From Microscillaceae bacterium (lineage in GTDB: Bacteria; Bacteroidota; Bacteroidia; Cytophagales; Microscillaceae), in contig JAABSX010000002.1 of NCBI GenBank assembly GCA_011390205.1, positions 62,001 through 126,000 on the forward strand: a DNA stretch of 64,000 bases. Reading direction: 5' to 3'. Every line of letters starts with the position of its first letter. The first letter of the stretch is position 1. Position numbers and translations under genes: made by a program. The notes under the pieces were generated by a model. That model was not told the origin of the DNA. It saw only the letters and a program-made list of their open reading frames with translations, and searched no databases. Positions 18,659 through 50,934 of this stretch are shown here, piece after piece.

Positions 18659-19144
18659 ATGGACAAAACACAGATAGGAATCATTATGGGGAGCAAGTCA
18701 GATTTGCCAGTGATGCAAGCAGCTGCAGATATTCTCAAAGACTTGGGTTTGGCTTATGAGTTAGACATCGTGTCGGCCCACCGCACACCTCAAAAAATGT
18801 TTGAATATGCACAAAATGCACGCAGCCGTGGGCTAAAAGTCATCATAGCAGGGGCAGGTGGCGCAGCACATTTGCCCGGCATGGTTGCCTCACTCACCAC
18901 ACTGCCCGTGATAGGTGTCCCCGTAAAATCTAGCAACTCCTTAGATGGCTGGGATTCTATTTTATCAATCTTGCAGATGCCCAACGGCGTGCCTGTAGCC
19001 ACTGTAGCCCTCAATGCTGCCAAAAACGCAGGAATCCTTGCAGCACAGATTGTCGGAGCTTTTGATGAAAAAATAGCCCAAAACCTCGCCAACTACAAGG
19101 CAGAAATGCAAGACAAGGTATTCAAAGATGCTCAATCACTTTGA
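18659..19144 (+). CDS. purE: N5-carboxyaminoimidazole ribonucleotide mutase
   Basis: A class I PurE of 161 residues that converts N5-CAIR to CAIR in purine synthesis. It shows the substrate loop IIMGSKSDLPVM (residues 8-19), VSAHRTPQKM (about 39-48) with the catalytic His, and GAGGAAHLPGM (about 66-76). Length and motifs are typical. The start is the ATG at 18659. It is usually paired with purK, which is not in the window. Confidence 0.97.
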   Translation: MDKTQIGIIMGSKSDLPVMQAAADILKDLGLAYELDIVSAHRTPQKMFEYAQNARSRGLKVIIAGAGGAAHLPGMVASLTTLPVIGVPVKSSNSLDGWDSILSILQMPNGVPVATVALNAAKNAGILAAQIVGAFDEKIAQNLANYKAEMQDKVFKDAQSL

Positions 19145-19384: not shown

Positions 19385-19996
19385 ATGAGCGATTTTAACC
19401 TTTGCGAAAACGGACACTACTACCCCCAAAACCTAAAAGAGTGCCCTTACTGCCCCAAATCTTCTGCTGATGAGCCTAGCCAGCAAGGCTTACCTTTTGG
19501 AGGAGGGAAGGGTAGCCTAGACAGAACCAAGATTAGCCAAGACGATGATGACTTCAATACCCCTAGCTTTTTTGGTGGTGGAGGCTCTACTGGGCAAAGT
19601 GATTTGGGGCGAACCCAAATTTACGGAAGCCAAGACAGCTATGGAGGCGGAAGCTTTTCCTCTGATTTTCAGCCAAGTGCTCCAAGCATAGGGCGCAAAA
19701 TGGTGGGCTGGCTCGTCTCATTCACCATAGATTCTAATGGGGCTGACTTTAGACTCTATGAAGGGCGAAACCTCATCGGCTCTGATACCTCTTGCGATAT
19801 TATCGTCAGAAATGATGCTGCTGTCTCGGGGCATCACCTCACGATACTACACCGAATGGGGCAGTTTAAATTTAAAGATGAACTCTCTACCAATGGCACT
19901 TTTATCAATGATGTATTTGAAGAAGAAGGCAATCTCAAAGATGGGGATGTCGTCAAAATGGGAGACACCATTTTTAAATTTAGAAGCATTGCCTAG
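19385..19996 (+). CDS. zinc-ribbon/FHA domain protein
   Basis: A 203-residue soluble protein. Residues 7-23 form a likely zinc knuckle (Cys7, His11, Cys20, Cys23). A Gly/Ser/Asp-rich linker contains two TKIS/TQIY-like threonine sites (DRTKIS, GRTQIY) that could be kinase targets. The C-terminal FHA domain (about residues 115-203) has GSDTSCDIIV, VSGHHL and STNGTFIN, i.e. the phosphothreonine-binding Ser-x-x-His and Asn-Gly elements with a modified GR (GS). It is the first gene of a five-gene co-directional signalling cluster with vWA/FHA, PP2C, pseudokinase and kinase, and probably reads phosphothreonine made by that kinase (inference). Confidence 0.85.
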   Translation: MSDFNLCENGHYYPQNLKECPYCPKSSADEPSQQGLPFGGGKGSLDRTKISQDDDDFNTPSFFGGGGSTGQSDLGRTQIYGSQDSYGGGSFSSDFQPSAPSIGRKMVGWLVSFTIDSNGADFRLYEGRNLIGSDTSCDIIVRNDAAVSGHHLTILHRMGQFKFKDELSTNGTFINDVFEEEGNLKDGDVVKMGDTIFKFRSIA

Positions 19997-20118
19997 CACT
20001 TATCAGTAAATGGATAATTCAAGAGGATTGAATATCCTGATTATCAAAAGCTTACAGTCAATCAACAGTGTAAGTCAATCTTGAGTAGTTCTGTATTTAA
20101 AATTTTTTGATTAAAAAA

Positions 20119-21741
20119 ATGATGAAAAATCTGCTTCAAATTCTATTTTCTTGTGTACTCTTTTTAGGGCTACAGCACACCGCTTGGGCCCAGACCGAAG
20201 AGCATTCTATCGTGGTAGTGGGGCATCCTGATACTTCTAGTTTTCCTACACTGAAGGTAACCATTCAGATGTCAAACAATGACCAGCCTCTAGAGGCTGA
20301 TTTTAAGCTTTTTGATGATGACCGCACAGTCATCGAGACCTTCAGGCTAGAAGCCAAAGCAGGAGAAGAAGCCCCGACCTCAGGAAACCTCATCTTTTTC
20401 TTGATTGATGCATCGAGCTACCCTGAAAATATCCCCCTCGAAAATTTCAAAAGAGCCGTCATAGAATCTATTGATGATTTTGTAACGGAGGCAGACCTCA
20501 TCAATGTAGGTTTTTTTAATAAACCCAAGGGAGATACAAGGGTCTTACAACTCTTGGATGCAGACTTTAGCCGTAATTTTTCACAGCTTACAGACCAAAT
20601 CCGTACCCGAATCACCAGTGCCTTAGAAGACAGTGTGAAGACAAACTATGCCTTCAAAGCCATCAAAGAAGCCATTCAGACCATTAGTAATAATTTTGAT
20701 GAGGGAAGAAGGCTGCTCATCGTTCTCTCAGGTGCGCCTGATAACCAAGACAAAAGCTTTACCTCAGATGATTTAATTAAGCTGGCAGATGACCAAAATA
20801 TCAGTATTCACACCATTAATTTTAAAATAGACGAGCGTTTTAATCCAGATTTGTTTGAAAGACTGAGCATAGGCACCAATGGGAAAAGCGAAATTACCCG
20901 AAATTTTTCTGACATCAAACAAACCATCGGTGGGATTCTGGAAAGCCGTGCACAGAGCCAAAGCGATGCCATACAGCAGTATGAACTTATATTCTCTGTC
21001 AATGTGCCACAAGACGGACAGAGCCACGAATACACCATCAACTACAAAGAAGAGCCACCCCTGACCCTGACCTATACTGCACCAGGTGAAGCAGGAAGCG
21101 TATCAAGTGGAGGCTTTCTGAATGATTATTTTTGGTGGATTATGATTTTGTTTCTGGGGGCTATCCTTGGGGCGGGTTACTGGTATGCCAATGAAATAAA
21201 AATCCGAAGACAAGAAGAAGAAGAGGCGAATGCAGAGTTTTTGGAGCAGCAAGAAGAAGAAAAGAAACGACTACAGCAAGAAAAAAACCGTGCTGTAGAA
21301 GAACTCAAAGAAAAAAACATTCGGCTCGAAGAGCAGCTCAGAGCCAAAGAACAGGAGCTTCTCAGAAAACAAGAAGAGGCACTTAACCAGCCTCCGCCTA
21401 TCCCTGCAGCACCCGAAAAAAGGGATTTAAAAAATACCATTATATCGGGAGGGGGAGCTGCTCCTGTCTTTAAAGTAGCCTCAGCAGGGATGAGCAAAAA
21501 TTTTAGCCTCAACAAACCCCTTATGACCATAGGCAGGGCCGCCAACAATGACATCGTCATCCCTGAGCAAACCGTATCTAGCAAGCATGCCACCATCAGC
21601 ATTCAAAAGGGAAGTTTTTTCTTGAATGACCTTGGCAGCACCAACGGCACTTTCATAAATGGCACAAGAATAGAATCTAAAATGCTCAAATCAGGTGATT
21701 TAATCAAACTGGGAGCAGCCCAGTGTAAATTTGAGATATAA
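20119..21741 (+). CDS. signal peptide-vWA-TM-coiled coil-FHA protein
   Basis: About 540 residues from the ATG at 20119 (an in-frame TTG at 20107 is less likely). Order: signal peptide (1-25, ending AWAQ), a vWA-like domain (about 85-300) starting with FFLIDASSYPE where the MIDAS DxSxS reads D-A-S-S-Y and so is incomplete, a beta-rich segment, a transmembrane helix (about 338-358, WWIMILFLGAILGAGYW), a charged coiled coil (about 365-430), a proline linker and an FHA domain (about 455-540) with GRAANNDI, VSSKHA and STNGTFING. The topology puts vWA in the periplasm and FHA in the cytoplasm. The next gene (PP2C) starts 29 bases downstream, so they are likely cotranscribed. The role is probably to link an envelope signal to phosphothreonine recognition. 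Confidence 0.82.
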   Translation: MMKNLLQILFSCVLFLGLQHTAWAQTEEHSIVVVGHPDTSSFPTLKVTIQMSNNDQPLEADFKLFDDDRTVIETFRLEAKAGEEAPTSGNLIFFLIDASSYPENIPLENFKRAVIESIDDFVTEADLINVGFFNKPKGDTRVLQLLDADFSRNFSQLTDQIRTRITSALEDSVKTNYAFKAIKEAIQTISNNFDEGRRLLIVLSGAPDNQDKSFTSDDLIKLADDQNISIHTINFKIDERFNPDLFERLSIGTNGKSEITRNFSDIKQTIGGILESRAQSQSDAIQQYELIFSVNVPQDGQSHEYTINYKEEPPLTLTYTAPGEAGSVSSGGFLNDYFWWIMILFLGAILGAGYWYANEIKIRRQEEEEANAEFLEQQEEEKKRLQQEKNRAVEELKEKNIRLEEQLRAKEQELLRKQEEALNQPPPIPAAPEKRDLKNTIISGGGAAPVFKVASAGMSKNFSLNKPLMTIGRAANNDIVIPEQTVSSKHATISIQKGSFFLNDLGSTNGTFINGTRIESKMLKSGDLIKLGAAQCKFEI

Positions 21742-21770
21742 ACCTCCATATAAAAATAACAAAGAAATAC

Positions 21771-23264
21771 ATGAGCCAATCTAAAAACTTTCGCTTTGGT
21801 AACCACACAGATGTAGGCAAAGTCCGCCATCAAAATGAGGATTACATGGGCTTCTTCGAGAATTATAATGGCGCTTTCTTTGTAGTCTGTGATGGTATGG
21901 GAGGACACGTAGGGGGAGCTACTGCTTCACAGACTGCCGTCAGTAGCATTCGCCAGTTTTTTGAAGAGCAATTTCACCCACAGCCCCAAGAAGCCATTCA
22001 TCAGGCAATCCAATATGCCAACACCCAAATCCACCAGAAAGCCCTCTCTAACCCTGAGCTAAGAGGCATGGGCACGACCTGTGTGCTTATGATGGTCAGA
22101 GACAATCTTATTTACTACGGGCATGTGGGCGATAGCCGCATTTACTTACACCGTGTCAGGGTCTTGAGCCAGCTCACCAAAGACCATTCTTTTGTGCAAG
22201 CACTCATAGAGCAAGGGCTGATTACTGAGGCAGAAGCCGAGAGTCACCCAAGAAGAAATGAGATTCTGAGGGCATTGGGTACCAGCCCCTTTGTGGATGT
22301 AGAAGTAGCCGAAGAGCCATTGCACCCGCTAGAAGGAGACATCTTGATGCTCTGCACCGATGGGCTAAACGGAATGCTCAGTAGCAAAGGGCTAGAAGAA
22401 ATCTTGAACAGCAATATGAGCCTACAGCACAAAGCACTCAAACTGGTAGATACTGCCAATCAGTACGGAGGCACTGATAACATCACTGTGCAGCTCGTGG
22501 AGTTTTTAGCTACCCTGCCTGCTAAAAGAGGATTCAGTAATAAACTGCATGAGTCAAACCCACATAGCAATGCAGATTTAGGAAGTACAAGACCAGGTAG
22601 CAACCTAGACCCACCGCCTTATGTGCCTCCTCAGAGCAAAGAACCCGAAGATGTAGAGCCTATCTCTGAACAATCATACGCTAAAAATCAACAGAAAAGA
22701 AAAAAATATGATGAAGAGGAGGAATATGATGAGAAAGAATACCAAAGCAACAAAAGAGGGCTCAGTATCAATACACTTGATGAGGTGGATTATCGCCCCT
22801 TCCTTACACGGGGCTTCTTAATCGTTTTTGCCCTTGTCTTTGGCTATGTCATCTTTAAAAATATAAGCACACACAAGCCCACAGCTTCTGAGCAGAGTGC
22901 TATCCAAAGAGATAGCCTCGATGCGGTTTCTCTCCAAAATCAATTCTATGAATATACAGGCATCCAAAAAGTCAAGGATACCTATAAAAAGACCAAAGAA
23001 ACTGTCATTAAAGCCAAAGAAACACTCGAGGAGCTTAATGAACTTCAAAAAAGAAAAAGAAGGGCATTGGATAGCTTGTTTCAGAATAAAAAGGTGAGGC
23101 TCATCGTCAATACACTTTCTAGTGGTGAGCAAACTGCACAAGACCTTGCAAAAAAATACAGGTCAAAAGTAGAATGGATTCTAAAAGCCAACGGTGTAAA
23201 GACAGAAGAAGAACTGGCAGAGCTAGATAGTCTAAGCATCCCCTTAGAAGCACCTCGCCCATAA
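21771..23264 (+). CDS. membrane-anchored PP2C serine/threonine phosphatase with LysM-like periplasmic end
   Basis: A 497-residue protein. The catalytic domain (about residues 1-245) has all PP2C metal motifs: RHQNED, VCDGMGGHVGG, GDSRIYL, CTDGLNGML and GGTDNITV. A hydrophilic linker (to about 340) leads to one transmembrane helix (about 343-364, FLIVFALVFGYVIF). The outer part has a coiled region and a C-terminal stretch (about 441-495: SGEQTAQDLAKKYRSKVEWI) that resembles a LysM motif. It probably removes phosphate placed by the kinase encoded at 24.9 kb. The gene lies 29 bases after vWA/FHA and 209 bases before the pseudokinase. Confidence 0.9.
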   Translation: MSQSKNFRFGNHTDVGKVRHQNEDYMGFFENYNGAFFVVCDGMGGHVGGATASQTAVSSIRQFFEEQFHPQPQEAIHQAIQYANTQIHQKALSNPELRGMGTTCVLMMVRDNLIYYGHVGDSRIYLHRVRVLSQLTKDHSFVQALIEQGLITEAEAESHPRRNEILRALGTSPFVDVEVAEEPLHPLEGDILMLCTDGLNGMLSSKGLEEILNSNMSLQHKALKLVDTANQYGGTDNITVQLVEFLATLPAKRGFSNKLHESNPHSNADLGSTRPGSNLDPPPYVPPQSKEPEDVEPISEQSYAKNQQKRKKYDEEEEYDEKEYQSNKRGLSINTLDEVDYRPFLTRGFLIVFALVFGYVIFKNISTHKPTASEQSAIQRDSLDAVSLQNQFYEYTGIQKVKDTYKKTKETVIKAKETLEELNELQKRKRRALDSLFQNKKVRLIVNTLSSGEQTAQDLAKKYRSKVEWILKANGVKTEEELAELDSLSIPLEAPRP

Positions 23265-23300
23265 ATTTAAAAGGAATGAAGTTTTGATTCATAAATTTTG

Positions 23301-23308
23301 TAGTTTTG
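23301..23308 (+). promoter_or_regulatory. possible internal promoter -7 box before the kinase pair
   Basis: TAGTTTTG matches TAnnTTTG exactly, 165 bases before the pseudokinase ATG, in the longest gap of the 20.1-26.5 kb cluster. A TTG at 23284-23286 is only 14 bases away, shorter than the usual -33/-7 spacing of about 20. Confidence 0.35.
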
Positions 23309-23473
23309 CCACCAAATAAATAGTGTAGAGGTTTTGGGTGATTTCAAAGCATTTTTTTAAGCAAAAAAGAGTAAAAAATCTCATAGGCAAATTACATCCT
23401 AAACCTAAAAAGCTTCTACACATTGAACAAGGTTTTGGTGAGACAGTAAGATTAACAATGGCATAACTCTAAT

Positions 23474-24919
23474 ATGACTGGGGAAAAAATACTAAACTAC
23501 AGAATTGAAAACTTTACGGAAGAAAATCAACTTTTTCGCTCGTTTCTGGCTACCCATACTCAGTTTGCAAAAAAGGTCATCGTCAAAACGCTCAAACCAC
23601 TTGCAAGCCAACTAGAAAAAGCGGACTTCTTAGAAGACTTAAAAAGGCTTGCTTCTATACAACACCCCAATGTGCTGACACTCTATGACCACTTAGAGAC
23701 AGCTCAAGACTTTTATCTCGTGTTTGAGTATGTAAAAGGTAGAACTATCGCAGACCATATCCGCTACGAAAGTGGCCCCATCCCTGAGCCAAAAACAAGG
23801 GATATCTTTGTCCAAATTTTACAAGCATTTGAGTTTGCAGCCCAAAAAGGAGCTACCAATGGAGCCATCAATGCACACAATATCTTGATGAGTGAGCAAG
23901 GAGATATAAAAATACTGGATGTGGCTTTGAGTAAGTTTTTTAAGCAAAAAATGCTCAAAGCCCAAGACAAAGATACACTCCAGGCGGCAAGCCCCGAAGA
24001 GATAGAGCAAAAAGAGCCAAGTATCCAGACAGATATTTATGCACTTGGGCTGTTGCTTTTTGAGATGCTCACAGGCAAAAATCCCTATGAAACATTCTCT
24101 GAAGATGAACTCAAACATAAAATAACACATTCAGCACTGCCACGAATCACCAAATACTACCCTATGGTGAGCTCTCAGATGCAGCATATTGTAGATAAAG
24201 CGACTGCCAAAGACCCCGCAGAAAGGTTCAAATCACTCAAGGAATTCTCGGAGGCATTGCAAAAAACAGAAACCAAACAAGAAGCGCCCCTCGTAGAGGA
24301 AGCACAAAGTGAACAAGTAAAAGAAATAGAAGAAGACCTCAGCCAAGCAAATACGCTGAATTTTCCCTTGCTCATGCTCATTCTTCTCTTTGGAGTCATC
24401 TTGACATTGTGGGCAGTGTATAGCCTCAGGCCAGAGCCAGGGGAGTCTGATATTTTGTATAATATCAAGGATATGGACAGAATCAACCAAATGCAAGACT
24501 CCATCGCAAAGGCACAAGGAGAGCAGGCAATGGCAGATAGTATTCGTATTTTTGGAGGAATTAACAAGAAAGACAGCTCAGAGATATACATCCATAAAGT
24601 AGAAAGGGGTGAGAATCTTCAGAAAATTGCCAAAATGTATTATCAACCACTAGACAGCCTCAAATCACTTAACAATATGACAGGGCGTGAGAGGCTCAAA
24701 CCTCGTGAGGGGGTAAAAGTAAGAATAAAGACACTCTATAAAATACAAAAAGGGGAAGACCTCTTGCAGGTAGCTCGCAAATTTAAAATCAGTGCCAACG
24801 TACTCAAAGAAGTCAATAAACTCTACCCCCAACCCGTAGAACCTGGTGAAATACCGCTTCCTATGGTCTATGAAGGTAAAAATATTGTAATCCCTTTGAT
24901 GGCAAATACTCCAAAATGA
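23474..24919 (+). CDS. transmembrane pseudokinase with two LysM domains
   Basis: A 481-residue protein that aligns over its first 270 residues with the active kinase encoded next to it (shared start GEKILNYRIE versus GERILNYKIE) but has lost the catalytic residues. The glycine loop is TEENQL (15-20). The HRD triad is Asn129-Gly130-Ala131. The catalytic-loop Lys is Asn133. DFG is Asp149-Val150-Ala151. Lys38 and Asn136 are kept. A transmembrane helix lies at about 296-318. The periplasmic part has two LysM motifs (about 373-418, HKVERGENLQKIAKMY; about 420-476, YKIQKGEDLLQVARKF) expected to bind peptidoglycan. The kinase gene starts 10 bases after its stop, so they are translated together. It is probably an allosteric partner or sensor of that kinase (inference). 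Confidence 0.88.
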   Translation: MTGEKILNYRIENFTEENQLFRSFLATHTQFAKKVIVKTLKPLASQLEKADFLEDLKRLASIQHPNVLTLYDHLETAQDFYLVFEYVKGRTIADHIRYESGPIPEPKTRDIFVQILQAFEFAAQKGATNGAINAHNILMSEQGDIKILDVALSKFFKQKMLKAQDKDTLQAASPEEIEQKEPSIQTDIYALGLLLFEMLTGKNPYETFSEDELKHKITHSALPRITKYYPMVSSQMQHIVDKATAKDPAERFKSLKEFSEALQKTETKQEAPLVEEAQSEQVKEIEEDLSQANTLNFPLLMLILLFGVILTLWAVYSLRPEPGESDILYNIKDMDRINQMQDSIAKAQGEQAMADSIRIFGGINKKDSSEIYIHKVERGENLQKIAKMYYQPLDSLKSLNNMTGRERLKPREGVKVRIKTLYKIQKGEDLLQVARKFKISANVLKEVNKLYPQPVEPGEIPLPMVYEGKNIVIPLMANTPK

Positions 24920-24929
24920 TGAACAAAGC

Positions 24930-26549
24930 ATGATAGGTGAGAGAATTTTAAACTATAAGATAGAATCCAGACTTGGTGAAGGTGGTGTAGGAACGGTGTA
25001 CTTGGCTGCCCATACACAGCTAGGAAGAAAAGTAGCCATCAAGGTGCTAAACCCTGCATTGGTAGATAATCAGCAAATCCGTGAACGCTTCCGAAATGAA
25101 GCAACTACACTTTCTGAACTCCAACACGTCAATATCATCACACTCTATGATTATTTAGAAAAAGAAAAAGAACTCTTTCTCATCATGGAGTATGCACCAG
25201 GGCAATCTTTGGATGAATACATCCACCAAATTACAGGACCCATTGCTGAGCAAAAAACTTGTTATTTCTTTGAACAAATCTTAGATGGCTTCGCTTATGC
25301 ACATCAGAAAGGTGTAGTGCACCGTGATATTAAGCCTTCTAACATCATCGTTACGCCTGACTCCGATATCAAAATACTTGACTTCGGAATCGCCAAAATC
25401 TTGAAAGAAGGAAAAAGAAACCTAACCAAAACAGGCACACAGCTTGGTACAGTGCTTTATATGAGCCCTGAGCAGGTCAAAGGGCAGTTTGTAGACCAAC
25501 GCACAGATATTTATTCGCTCGGGCTGACTCTCTTCGAGATGATTACCGGCAAATGCCCCTACGATGGCTCTATACTTACAGAATATGAGGTCTATGAAAA
25601 AATCCTCAAAGAGCCACTCCCCAACCCTGCCAGTTTTTACCCAAATGTATCAGATAAGATACAGCAGGTCATAGCCAAGGCTACTGCCAAAAACCCCCAA
25701 GACCGATACCAAACCTGTGAAGAGTTTAAGCAGGCACTCATTGCACAAACTAGCACAACAAATATTTCTACAAATACAAGCTACAGCACAAAAACAGCAC
25801 TAGCCAGCCCTAATCCTACGAGGGTTACAAAAAAGATGGCCTCAAAATCTTCAGGAATAGACAAACTCAAAAGGAAAAATAATTTGATTTTGTACAGTGT
25901 CATCATAGTATTGTCAAGTCTGACACTTTGGCTAGGAGTAAGCATCTTTTCTGAAAATGACCAATCTACACAAGATGATGGTGCAGAAGTCGTCAGTGAA
26001 AACACAAAATCGAAAGAAAGGGATGATAACCCTGTAGAAGTAGAAAGTGATTTTAGTGAAGATGATACTAAAAGCGCCGAAGAAATACTGCTAGACAGTC
26101 TTAATCAGAAAAAAATACGCACAGAGGGTTTTCTCAAAATACTCAAAACCGAAAGAGAAAAAGAATTACTCAAAGGACTGCTAATAGACGGCCAGGTAGA
26201 GGAGGGGAGCTCAGGGCAATTCTTAGGTGAATTTGTGGTGCAGGTAACCGTAGCCAATCGCCGAGACGATGCTCGGTTTGAGGATTTACTCATCGGGATT
26301 ACCTATTTTAATGAAAATGACAAGCAAATCAAGGCAAGAGAGCAAGCACTAGAACCCTTAGATGCTGATAAATCCATTACTTTTAGGGTGCGAGAAGATG
26401 TAGAAGCAGTCAAATTTGCGACAAGTCTAAAGAAGGTCAAAGTCATAGACCTAGAGCCTACAGAAGTCTTAGACTCTCTCAACAACGAACTCAAAGAACT
26501 GAATGAAAGAATCAGCAAGGTAAAACAAAATATGAGCGAAGATTTTTAA
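24930..26549 (+). CDS. transmembrane serine/threonine protein kinase
   Basis: A 539-residue Hanks-type kinase with an intact catalytic domain (about residues 9-270): glycine loop GEGGVG 16-21, Lys38, His131-Arg132-Asp133, Asn138, Asp151-Phe152-Gly153, a TGTQLGT activation segment and SPEQ. A Ser/Thr-rich juxtamembrane linker (about 271-315) is followed by a transmembrane helix (about 316-338, ILYSVIIVLSSLTLWLGV), an acidic stretch and a periplasmic domain (about 395-505) I do not recognise, then a short coiled end. It has no PASTA repeats. It is the last gene of the signalling cluster and ends before a strong terminator. Likely substrates are the FHA proteins upstream (inference). Confidence 0.93.
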   Translation: MIGERILNYKIESRLGEGGVGTVYLAAHTQLGRKVAIKVLNPALVDNQQIRERFRNEATTLSELQHVNIITLYDYLEKEKELFLIMEYAPGQSLDEYIHQITGPIAEQKTCYFFEQILDGFAYAHQKGVVHRDIKPSNIIVTPDSDIKILDFGIAKILKEGKRNLTKTGTQLGTVLYMSPEQVKGQFVDQRTDIYSLGLTLFEMITGKCPYDGSILTEYEVYEKILKEPLPNPASFYPNVSDKIQQVIAKATAKNPQDRYQTCEEFKQALIAQTSTTNISTNTSYSTKTALASPNPTRVTKKMASKSSGIDKLKRKNNLILYSVIIVLSSLTLWLGVSIFSENDQSTQDDGAEVVSENTKSKERDDNPVEVESDFSEDDTKSAEEILLDSLNQKKIRTEGFLKILKTEREKELLKGLLIDGQVEEGSSGQFLGEFVVQVTVANRRDDARFEDLLIGITYFNENDKQIKAREQALEPLDADKSITFRVREDVEAVKFATSLKKVKVIDLEPTEVLDSLNNELKELNERISKVKQNMSEDF

Positions 26550-43093: not shown

Positions 43094-45298
43094 GTGGTAC
43101 AAAGTAAGATTGATATTATAAAAGTAAGCAGCGGCATTTTTTGGGTGAATATACACCCCTTAAACTTACGTATATTATGTGGATGCCCAGCAGATACCGT
43201 AAAACATCTCAAAAAAAGAGGTCTGATAGATTTGGTGCAGCAAAATGGCATTTCATTTGAAACAGGCCCCAATGCTATCTTACTTGCCGACATTGCCCTC
43301 CAAAATGGCTCACTCTCCAACCTTGCAGAGTTCCCGCTCTTACAGATGCTCTACTCACAAGGAATGCTCATCCCGAATCACCCTAACAACAATGGGCAAA
43401 AACCACTGCTCATCGGAAAAGAATCCCAGATTAAAGCACAAATGGATTACTTCTACAGAGGTAATTACGGACTCACCAGTAAAGAAGAAATCATGGAGGC
43501 AGGAGCAAGTGAAGCCCTAGCAGATGAAATCATGCACGTAAAACTTAAATTTGCCTTTGGAAAGCTGAAGCCCTCTCACGAACTGGTGGACCAACTCATC
43601 ATTGCTGACGAACCCATAGAAATCGAAAACGGGGCTGTCATTCGCCGAAAAGATATAAACATCTTTGAGATTAGTTACGAGGGAGAATCCGTAACCATAG
43701 ACCTCAACCTTAAACCAAAAGAACTGTATGAGCCACCTTATTACTTAGGGTATCATAAACTCAATAGAGAATATTTCTCCATCGTGCACACTGGAGAGGG
43801 AGACGCTTGGGACGTAAACAGACCCTGTATGTCGAGCCTCATCACTTTTCAGGGAAAAATATACCTTATAGATGCAGGCCCAGATTTACTCACTAGTCTT
43901 AATGCCATGGGCGTAAGTATCAATGAAGTAGCAGGCATTTTTAATACACACGCCCATGATGACCACTTTGCAGGTTTGATTGCTTTTGTACGCTCAGACC
44001 ACCGCATCAAGTATTTTGCAAGCGCTGTGGTGAGGGCATCTGTATCCAAAAAACTCTGTGCCTTGATGGGGCTGGGAGAAGAAAATTTTGAAAGGTTTTT
44101 TGAAGTACAAGACCTCAAACTAGACCACTGGAATAACATAAATGGGTTAGAAGTGAAGCCTCTTATCTCACCTCACCCCGTAGAAACCAATATATTTTAC
44201 TTCCGAACTTTTTGGGGAAACAGATACATCAGCTACGGACACCTTGCAGATATATCTTCTTTTAGAGTGTTAGAGCAGAATATTTTTAAAAATACAGATA
44301 CAGAAAAATATGACCACCTCTTACAAAAAGTAAAAAATGACTATCTTCTTCCTGCTGACCTCAAAAAAATAGACATAGGCGGAGGTCTCATCCATGGAGA
44401 TGCCAAAGATTTTGAACAAGATGAGTCTAGTAAAATCCTCTTAGCACATATCTCCAGAACACTCACAGATGGTGAAAGGCAAATTGGCTCATTCGCCCCT
44501 TTCGGAAGCACCGACTCACTCGCCGAAACTCACCACGACTTCCTCAGAGCATCTGCCTACGAATACCTCAAATTCTATTTCCCAAATGTGCCTGAGTATG
44601 AAATTCACTCCCTCCTCAACTGCCCCAAAGTTTCTATGACCGCAGGCGAAACCTTGTTTAGGAAAGATACCAAATACCAGCATGTCTATCTTATTTTGAC
44701 TGGCTCTGTTGAGTTGGTTTATCCTGAAACAGGCATAGAGAATAACCTCTCAGCAGGATCATTGGTGGGTTATTTTATAGATGATCATGACCTCATCGCC
44801 AAAGCTACCTGCCAAGCTACTACTTACATTACTGCACTGAAGATTCCTATGATGATGTATCTCAACTTTGTCAAAAGACACCATCTCGTAGAAGATTTTA
44901 ATAAACTAGAGCACATCGTATCTGTGCTCAGTACTACTTGGATATTTTCTGAAAATATCTCTTTGCCCATTTATATCAAGCTAGCACAGCTCACTAACAA
45001 GCAAAGCTACAGCAAAGGTGAGAGCCTTTGTATATCCAAAGGGATGGGTTTTAACTTGATTTTCTCTGGCAAAGCCGCCCTGCTCGCAAGCGATGGGGCA
45101 GTCATAGAAAATCTAAAAAGAGGAGACTTCTTCGGAGCTGAAAATATACTCCCCTCTAAAAATGAACACAACTTTGAGGTGTTCTTCTTAGAAGATACTG
45201 AGATTTATAACATCCCCATGGAAGTAGTCATGAATATCCCTATCGTGTACTGGAAAATCAGGCACACTGCCGAGCAAAGAAGTAGTAGGTTAGACTAG
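43094..45298 (+). CDS. metallo-beta-lactamase fold protein with two cyclic-nucleotide-binding-like domains
   Basis: A 734-residue soluble protein. The N-terminal region (about 1-240) opens with GIFWVNIHP and ILCGCPADTVKHL. A metallo-beta-lactamase core follows (about 250-440) with NTHAHDDHFAG (HxHxDH metal ligands), SPHP and GHLADI. Two CRP-like beta-roll domains come after (about 510-605 and 635-725). Their phosphate cassettes are degenerate (GSLVGYF and GDFFGAE without the Arg), so cNMP binding is uncertain. The only upstream start in frame that keeps the conserved N-terminus is a GTG at 43094, with a TAA 21 bases before it. It lies 183 bases after the adenylate cyclase and may be its effector (inference). 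Confidence 0.85.
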   Translation: MVQSKIDIIKVSSGIFWVNIHPLNLRILCGCPADTVKHLKKRGLIDLVQQNGISFETGPNAILLADIALQNGSLSNLAEFPLLQMLYSQGMLIPNHPNNNGQKPLLIGKESQIKAQMDYFYRGNYGLTSKEEIMEAGASEALADEIMHVKLKFAFGKLKPSHELVDQLIIADEPIEIENGAVIRRKDINIFEISYEGESVTIDLNLKPKELYEPPYYLGYHKLNREYFSIVHTGEGDAWDVNRPCMSSLITFQGKIYLIDAGPDLLTSLNAMGVSINEVAGIFNTHAHDDHFAGLIAFVRSDHRIKYFASAVVRASVSKKLCALMGLGEENFERFFEVQDLKLDHWNNINGLEVKPLISPHPVETNIFYFRTFWGNRYISYGHLADISSFRVLEQNIFKNTDTEKYDHLLQKVKNDYLLPADLKKIDIGGGLIHGDAKDFEQDESSKILLAHISRTLTDGERQIGSFAPFGSTDSLAETHHDFLRASAYEYLKFYFPNVPEYEIHSLLNCPKVSMTAGETLFRKDTKYQHVYLILTGSVELVYPETGIENNLSAGSLVGYFIDDHDLIAKATCQATTYITALKIPMMMYLNFVKRHHLVEDFNKLEHIVSVLSTTWIFSENISLPIYIKLAQLTNKQSYSKGESLCISKGMGFNLIFSGKAALLASDGAVIENLKRGDFFGAENILPSKNEHNFEVFFLEDTEIYNIPMEVVMNIPIVYWKIRHTAEQRSSRLD

Positions 45299-50367: not shown

Positions 50368-50460
50368 GCGGGGGGATTGGTTAATGGTGATGTCTCCAAT
50401 TACGAAAATAATTCTTATCTTTGTTACCTACTCATTGAAACAAGTAAGCCTTTTATCAGA

Positions 50461-50934
50461 ATGAAAAACCACATAGGTACAAGAGTCCTCAACTATGAAA
50501 TAGTATCTTTTTTGGGTGAAGGTGGTTTAGCAGAGGTATATTTAGCCAAGCACATACGCCTAGCCAATCAGCAAGTAGCTATCAAGATTTTAAAATCAGA
50601 ATATGCCAACAAACAGGTCATTAGAGAACGCTTTGTTCGTGAAGCAGAGATTATGGCTACACTATCCCACCCTAACATTGCGAAAGTCTCAGATTTTGTA
50701 GAAGATGAATCTATGCTAGCCATTATTTTAGAATACCTTGAGGGCGAGTCATTAGATGAATACATAAGGAGCAAAGGAGCTTTGCACACGCTCTCAGAGG
50801 TGAAGCGCATATTTAGTCAAATATTTCTAGGCTTTGAGTATGCACACGGATACGAAAACTCAGTAATACATCGAGATATAAAACCCCCCAATCTGGTGCA
50901 AGCCTCGAGGCTTGCACCAGATTGGGGGCAGTGA
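50461..50934 (+). pseudogene. serine/threonine kinase fragment, truncated in the catalytic loop
   Basis: The N-terminal lobe of a Hanks-type kinase closely similar to the one at 24.9 kb (GTRVLNYEIVSFLGEGGLAEVYLA; IKIL with the catalytic Lys; RERFVREAEIMATLSHPNI). The frame reaches HRDIKPPN, the catalytic loop, and then continues as a foreign LVQASRLAPDWGQ and stops. That foreign part is the translation of a perfect palindrome. No DFG, activation segment or C-lobe exists downstream in any frame. The original start is most likely the ATG at 50461 (an ATG at 50377 adds a leader that does not match the family). It is non-functional as a kinase. Confidence 0.88.
50885..50928. repeat. 44-nt perfect palindrome at the kinase break
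   Basis: Arms of 22 bases centred on TCGA (50905-50908): CCCCCAATCTGGTGCAAGCC on the left and its exact complement on the right, with no loop. It sits exactly where homology to kinases ends. It looks like an extragenic palindromic element rather than a terminator, because no T-run follows. Confidence 0.92.

Follow-up and report, generated by a model that had tools for sequence, protein, structure and literature searches.

Gene content of the cluster

The analyzed window is a stretch of 64,000 nucleotides from a Microscillaceae bacterium (contig JAABSX010000002.1). Positions 19385-26549 of the window hold five co-directional genes encoding, in this order, an FHA protein (FHA-1), a protein with vWA and FHA domains (vWA-FHA), a PP2C phosphatase, a LysM-bearing pseudokinase (psK), and a Ser/Thr kinase (KIN) (Table 1). 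The open reading frame (ORF) list and Pfam matches confirm the five genes and domain types of the original prediction, made from the letters of the DNA alone, and one active-looking kinase, one dead kinase, one intact PP2C, and two FHA proteins are borne out by motifs and Pfam. The intergenic gaps are 110, 29, 209, and 10 bases, and the ORF list of the window contains no additional gene among the five. As also proposed, four products span the membrane, with the catalytic and FHA parts predicted inside, and the vWA, LysM, and unknown-fold parts predicted outside. Counts of Lys and Arg residues place the FHA domain of vWA-FHA and the kinase domain of KIN in the cytoplasm; the same test does not discriminate the orientation of psK.

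The LysM pseudokinase

The strongest part of the finding, and the most strictly conserved member of the cluster, is psK. The window copy has a kinase fold without the Gly loop, the HRD Asp, and the DFG Gly, and retains the beta3 Lys and DFG Asp; its motifs read EENQLF, VIVK, TNGAINAHN, and ILDVALS, versus GEGGVG, VAIK, VHRDIKPSN, and ILDFGIA in KIN, respectively. The kinase-like part is followed by a transmembrane (TM) segment at about position 300 and two LysM domains outside, with the LysM score of 38.6 bits against the Pfam cut-off of 20.9.

A search of 241 genomes of the order with the outer half of psK (TM segment, linker, and LysM pair) recovered a full-length relative from all 15 genomes of f1, the family of the window (E-values 8.7e-98 to 6.6e-45), and from seven genomes of its sister family f22 (2.7e-38 to 3.7e-27); at least one f22 genome, G130 (81% complete), has no match. 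The next matches in these 241 genomes had E-values of 8.6e-15 or weaker and covered mainly the LysM part, and in a sample of 395 genomes of the phylum matches at E <= 1e-12 were limited to the window's own genome. Since the outer half alone finds a full-length relative in all 15 family genomes at E <= 7e-45, the recurrence of psK is not due to chance.

All 22 orthologs from the two families match both the Pfam kinase and the Pfam LysM models, and thus the predicted LysM identity of the outer segment holds. The HRD Asp is lost in 22 out of 22, with Ala at this position in 15; the DFG Asp is retained in seven and the beta3 Lys in 14, whereas the APE Glu, a residue of the fold, is kept in all. 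Judging by these residues, copies with both the beta3 Lys and the DFG Asp could bind nucleotides or perform a reaction other than phosphotransfer. Pairwise ratios of nonsynonymous to synonymous substitution rates (dN/dS) range from 0.10 to 0.16 in the kinase-like part and from 0.02 to 0.09 in the outer, LysM part, the latter being the more constrained half in five out of five pairs with both values measurable. Purifying selection, with dN/dS about 0.1 in every measurable pair, and the family-wide presence rule out a decaying pseudogene. The strict conservation of a dead kinase joined to LysM domains suggests that it serves as a wall-attached scaffold. A recent origin of psK by tandem duplication of KIN is not borne out by the tree of psK, KIN, and other-class kinases, which has long branches and sets psK apart from all the rest (92/87).

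A 2025 review lists seven families of bacterial pseudokinases (ActPs1-3, GLW, CP1, DYD, and DLHK) without mention in its text of LysM or of Bacteroidetes/Bacteroidota. Like these families, psK has degraded catalytic motifs on a kinase fold, often membrane-linked, and the motif loss is conserved in orthologs. However, compared with the published descriptions consulted, psK does not appear to fit any of the seven. For example, the beta3 Lys is replaced in GLW and kept in 14 out of 22 psK; DLHK has no TM segment and keeps the HRD Asp, whereas psK has a TM segment and has lost this Asp. No account of this LysM pseudokinase system was found in the open-access papers searched, in line with the novelty that had been supposed for it.

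Kinase, phosphatase, and FHA proteins

Gene content was counted in 24 genomes, 15 of them from the window's family, several of these 15 being incomplete. KIN is a PknB/PrkC-type Ser/Thr kinase with intact motifs, a TM segment at about position 320, and an outer domain; by its motifs it looks active. Its nearest PDB relatives are the PrkC/Stk1-type, PknB, and StkP kinases. The outer domain is conserved in 20 out of 24 genomes, has no consistent Pfam match and no PDB profile match, and yields an uninformative single-sequence model. The catalytic motifs are intact in most genomes of the window's family, KIN being dead in G014 (VFGHFG for VHRDIK) and degraded in G005; it is also dead in G038, G067, G092, G053, and G080 of the sister family. 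Elsewhere in the window lies the N-terminal half of another Ser/Thr kinase domain, which ends right past IHRDIKPPN; there is no C-lobe downstream in any frame. This is a truncated or decayed copy.

The window PP2C scores above the NCBIfam cut-off for the Stp1/IreP family and has the complete set of catalytic motifs (RxxNED, DGMGGH, GDSR, CTDGL, and TDN), with a TM segment, an outer coiled coil, and a LysM-like end beyond the catalytic domain. The LysM assignment proposed for this end fares less well than that for psK: five out of seven aligned copies match Pfam LysM, but the outer segment of the window copy has no such match of its own, and the call is weak. The single-sequence structure model of the segment is all-helical, with moderate confidence. 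The motifs are intact in the window's family and in G105 of f22. In five other f22 genomes (G053, G080, G092, G038, and G118), DGMGGH, GDSR, CTDGL, and DN are lost, the TM segment and LysM are kept, and dN/dS of 0.06-0.13 indicates purifying selection on the dead copies. In the f22 genus g34 (L127-L129), the orthologs of the LysM-PP2C, psK, and KIN are all dead, and a separate intact kinase and PP2C pair is present, which may have taken over the catalytic role. Judging by motifs, the sister family adds pseudophosphatases and more dead kinases to the dead psK.

FHA-1 consists of an N-terminal zinc-ribbon-like motif (CENGH...CPYC), a disordered linker, and a C-terminal FHA domain; it has no TM segment and is presumably cytoplasmic. 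The window copy reads IGS versus the canonical IGR, that is, the phosphate-binding Arg is absent; this position is occupied by Ser, Ala, or Lys in all Cytophagales copies seen, and the Arg is retained in the outgroups G351, G418, G600, and G376. The nearest PDB structures to the FHA-1 family profile are those of the FHA domain of FhaA/TB39.8, including 3oun, which we take to be the complex of this domain with the MviN pseudokinase.

The second FHA protein, vWA-FHA, has a signal sequence, an extracytoplasmic vWA-like domain, a TM segment at about 335-357, a charged coiled coil, and a cytoplasmic FHA domain with IGR, SxxH, and STNG all intact. The latter is nearest to FhaB in NCBIfam, with a score below the cut-off. 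The window vWA domain lacks the canonical metal ion-dependent adhesion site (MIDAS, DxSxS/T/D) and reads DASSY, unlike the homologs in G418 and G600, where the start of the MIDAS is present (DVSGSM and DISGSM, respectively). Nevertheless, the predicted outer vWA domain stands, with a Pfam vWA match in 10 out of 16 aligned orthologs. The cluster had been credited with two phosphopeptide readers; both proteins carry an FHA domain, but FHA-1 lacks the phosphate-binding Arg, and hence we infer that phosphothreonine is read by vWA-FHA rather than by FHA-1.

Conservation of the genes and of their order

In the window's family, psK is present in 15 out of 15 genomes, the KIN outer domain in 14, FHA-1 in 14, vWA-FHA in 13, and PP2C in 12, the three remaining genomes (G010, G011, and G013) having LysM-type matches alone or no match. 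The complete order purE-FHA1-vWAFHA-PP2C-psK-KIN is intact in four out of 15 (G000, G006, G007, and G014). Its fragments are PP2C-psK-KIN in G003 and in G105 of f22, psK-KIN in G001, G005, G053, and G080, FHA1-vWAFHA-PP2C in G001, and FHA1-vWAFHA in G003 and G005; psK adjoins KIN in these ten out of 22 psK genomes. Hence, the predicted gene order does recur beyond the genome studied (complete in G006, G007, and G014), whereas the claim that one operon holds the complete logic of Ser/Thr signaling stands for the genes and not for the operon, which is dispersed in most of the family.

Family f5 (G018 and G066) has purE-FHA1-vWAFHA-PP2C-KIN without psK, with one additional gene in G018. Outside the order, in another class, FHA1-vWAFHA-PP2C-kinase is found in G418 and G600, and in G351 with an additional FHA gene; G414, also outside the order, has FHA1-vWAFHA-PP2C without the kinase. 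FHA-1 was found in 11 out of 395 sampled genomes of the phylum at E <= 1e-15. As the four-gene core occurs both in f5 without psK and outside the order (G351, G418, and G600), it is an older Bacteroidota arrangement, and the LysM psK is a clade-specific addition to it. An operon-wide horizontal element is not supported, since the purE synteny in two families points to vertical inheritance; the linkage to purE is probably a matter of synteny rather than function.

Two further arrangements were seen. Rv1747-like fusions of two or three FHA domains with an ABC transporter (FHA-FHA(-FHA)-ABC; L091 and L097) adjoin FHA1/vWA-FHA/PP2C clusters in other Bacteroidota, and family f37 (L095, L096, L098, L099, and L100) has arrays of several Ser/Thr kinase, FHA-FHA-TM, and PP2C genes, forming a larger phospho-signaling cluster; one of these arrays includes an FGE-sulfatase-like gene.

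Table 1. Coordinates of the cluster genes and of other features mentioned in the text (window unless a locus label, L, is given).
Feature	Position	Strand	Length	Evidence or remark
FHA-1	19385..19996	+	203 aa	ORF list; Pfam FHA (4e-12)
vWA-FHA	20107..21741	+	544 aa, TTG start	Pfam VWA (1e-4, slightly under cut-off) and FHA (2e-22)
PP2C phosphatase	21771..23264	+	497 aa	Pfam PP2C_2 (2e-17)
Pseudokinase (psK)	23474..24919	+	481 aa	Pfam Pkinase (2e-35) and LysM (two stretches, 1e-9)
Kinase (KIN)	24930..26549	+	539 aa	Pfam Pkinase (1e-61)
purE	18659..19144	+		Upstream neighbor of the cluster, kept in two families
Kinase domain, N-terminal half	50377-50934	+		Truncated or decayed copy
Cyclic-nucleotide-binding/metallo-beta-lactamase-fold gene	43094-45298	+		Weak likeness to anti-Pycsar Apyc1
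Additional gene of G018 (f5)	L061 10139-11374		412 aa	Between vWA-FHA and PP2C; no Pfam match
LysM-anchored pseudophosphatase	L089 7392-8585			
LysM-anchored pseudophosphatase	L090 7903-9075			
LysM-anchored pseudophosphatase	L108 8191-9405			
LysM-anchored pseudophosphatase	L109 9146-10315			
LysM-anchored pseudophosphatase	L110 9502-10671			
FHA-ABC transporter fusion	L091 14900-17257			Rv1747-like
FHA-ABC transporter fusion	L097 1430-3931			Rv1747-like

The cluster is flanked by purE upstream and a convergent patatin gene downstream (Pfam). The 20 sites of a promoter scan are uninformative, the expectation being 15.2 +/- 3.9. Elsewhere in the window, two genes upstream of the DNA polymerase III alpha gene, lies a gene combining cyclic-nucleotide-binding domains with a metallo-beta-lactamase fold, weakly similar to the anti-Pycsar protein Apyc1.

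Comparison with known systems

By gene content, the cluster can be likened to the mycobacterial fhaA-fhaB-pstP-rodA-pbpA-pknA-pknB operon (PMC11898655), which also has two FHA proteins, one PP2C, and two kinases per locus. The similarity extends to the parts: the FHA domain of FHA-1 is nearest to FhaA in PDB, the kinase is of the PknB type, the PP2C is of the Stp1/PstP type, and both systems include a pseudokinase, in mycobacteria MviN, bound by FhaA in wall control. There, the MviN tail is a phosphorylation substrate of PknB, and the FHA domain of FhaA binds it, restraining peptidoglycan synthesis (PMC12599244). By analogy, the module described here would most likely work like FhaA/PknB/PstP/MviN. 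Still, the cluster is not the actinobacterial wall operon itself: it lacks rodA, pbpA, and PASTA domains, with wall binding predicted via LysM instead; psK stands as the second "kinase" in the locus and is not a flippase fusion as MviN is; and the membrane vWA-FHA and the altered FHA-1 differ as well.

With the PASTA kinase–phosphatase pairs (PrkC-PrpC, StkP-PhpP, and PknB-PstP), the cluster shares the kinase and PP2C classes, the single-pass topology of the kinase, and a Stp1-type PP2C gene near the kinase gene (here one gene away, with psK between), but this PP2C has a TM segment and an outer domain of its own. Pfam scans of the cluster proteins found no PASTA repeats, and KIN remains below the cut-off of the NCBIfam PASTA-kinase model (320 vs. 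450 bits, the match covering the kinase part only). Thus, the cluster is not a PASTA system.

The combination of an active membrane kinase with a LysM pseudokinase is also known from the plant LysM receptor pairs (NFR1 or NFRe with NFR5), where the NFR5 pseudokinase is a transphosphorylation substrate of active NFRe (PMC6025957). In our case, however, it is the dead partner that bears the two LysM domains, and the active one has a different outer domain; the origin is presumably independent.

Proposed mechanism and alternative explanations

We consider it about equally probable as not that the five genes, as read from sequence, encode a Ser/Thr phosphorylation module of the cell envelope that is tethered to peptidoglycan through LysM domains. 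From the domain content, topology trends, dead and active motifs, co-conservation, and purifying selection described above, we infer the physical interactions, direction of the signal, peptidoglycan binding, and substrates in the following scheme. KIN would span the inner membrane, with its outer domain responding to a periplasmic cue, and would phosphorylate its partners at Thr residues of their cytoplasmic segments, including the juxtamembrane part of psK. The latter would transfer no phosphate; through its LysM pair it would anchor the complex to peptidoglycan, and through its kinase fold it would be a docking or allosteric partner of KIN. Bacterial kinases of the PknB/PrkC type dimerize back-to-back via the N-lobe. 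The phosphorylated site would be read by the FHA domain of vWA-FHA, whose phosphothreonine-binding residues are kept, and coupled to the periplasmic vWA domain; FHA-1, with its zinc ribbon and altered FHA domain, may act as a soluble adaptor; and PP2C would reset the system.

A joint function of the five proteins is best supported by the co-conservation of their genes after the operon has broken up. The envelope module is thus favored by the family-wide conservation of gene content even where the order is lost, and also by the resemblance of its parts to proteins of wall control, namely, KIN to PrkC/Stk1, PknB, and StkP, PP2C to Stp1/IreP, and FHA-1 to FhaA. Several observations weigh against it. 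The phosphate contact of FHA-1 is altered; the full order is seen in just four out of 15 family genomes; no peptidoglycan-synthesis gene lies within the five-gene cluster; LysM domains can bind other polymers of N-acetylglucosamine; and, as KIN is dead or degraded in some genomes, its pairing with the pseudokinase is not catalytic everywhere.

More tentatively, the LysM-dead kinase, joined in the sister family by the LysM-dead PP2C, might represent an undescribed class of pseudoenzyme receptors that read peptidoglycan and steer an active partner allosterically, an independent counterpart of the plant LysM kinase/pseudokinase pair.

The strongest rival explanation, which we regard as somewhat unlikely, is that psK and the dead proteins related to it act as structural anchors that bind peptidoglycan and whose kinase or phosphatase domains serve only as inert protein-binding platforms in the cytoplasm, the sensing circuit having been lost in much of the clade. 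The stronger constraint on the LysM half of psK agrees with this, as does its separation from the other cluster genes in many family genomes, and the state of genus g34, with its three dead proteins and a separate intact pair, fits it as well. However, PP2C and most KIN of the window's family keep their catalytic motifs, the adjacency of psK and KIN recurs, and the kinase-like part of psK is likewise under clear purifying selection.

Less probable still is a switch similar to ArnA-ArnB of Sulfolobus, in which a zinc-ribbon FHA protein and a vWA protein would form a core complex, tightened by phosphorylation, that controls the expression of surface structures. The adjoining genes of FHA-1 and vWA-FHA match ArnA and ArnB in domain content, and kinase/phosphatase control, predicted here, is common to both; moreover, the PDB matches of the vWA-FHA profile include chains of ArnA (5a8i, 8s05_C) and ArnB (8s05_A), the two 8s05 chains being identified presumptively by their entry names. 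FhaA and GarA give stronger matches, though, and the Arn system is archaeal and cytoplasmic, with a PP2A-type phosphatase and without LysM or a pseudokinase. In that system, the zinc finger of ArnA alone binds ArnB, and the ArnA FHA domain binds ArnB after phosphorylation by ArnC (PMC12852372), whereas the FHA domain of FHA-1 lacks the Arg. Finally, the vWA domain is predicted to be periplasmic and FHA-1 cytoplasmic, and therefore a similar contact would be possible only with the cytoplasmic part of vWA-FHA.

A local variant of the pathway that controls the type VI secretion system by threonine phosphorylation (PpkA/PppA/Fha) would share the kinase, PP2C, FHA, and vWA domain types, but it is highly improbable and largely refuted: the fusions differ, vWA being joined here to FHA and not to the kinase, as in PpkA with its C-terminal vWA (PMC1262709), and no sheath gene was found in the 24 genomes, with no match to classical TssC (PF05943), for which the E. 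coli positive control did match, and none to PF17541, searched without a positive control. Equally improbable is an anti-phage kinase of the PD-T4-6 type or another component of a defense island, which we reject, since the many PADLOC PD-T4-6 models matching KIN and psK are broad Ser/Thr kinase models matched via the kinase domain, while the gene set is family-wide and includes no other defense gene among the five.

Biological implications

Bacterial pseudokinases have barely been studied, and psK, always joined to LysM and present in every one of the 15 f1 genomes and in seven f22 genomes, provides a defined and testable system for the role of dead kinases in bacteria. It also bears on how Gram-negative bacteria without PASTA kinases might couple the state of the cell wall to protein phosphorylation. 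The sister family, in which both the phosphatase and the kinase are dead yet under selection, offers a natural series of a signaling circuit turning into a scaffold.

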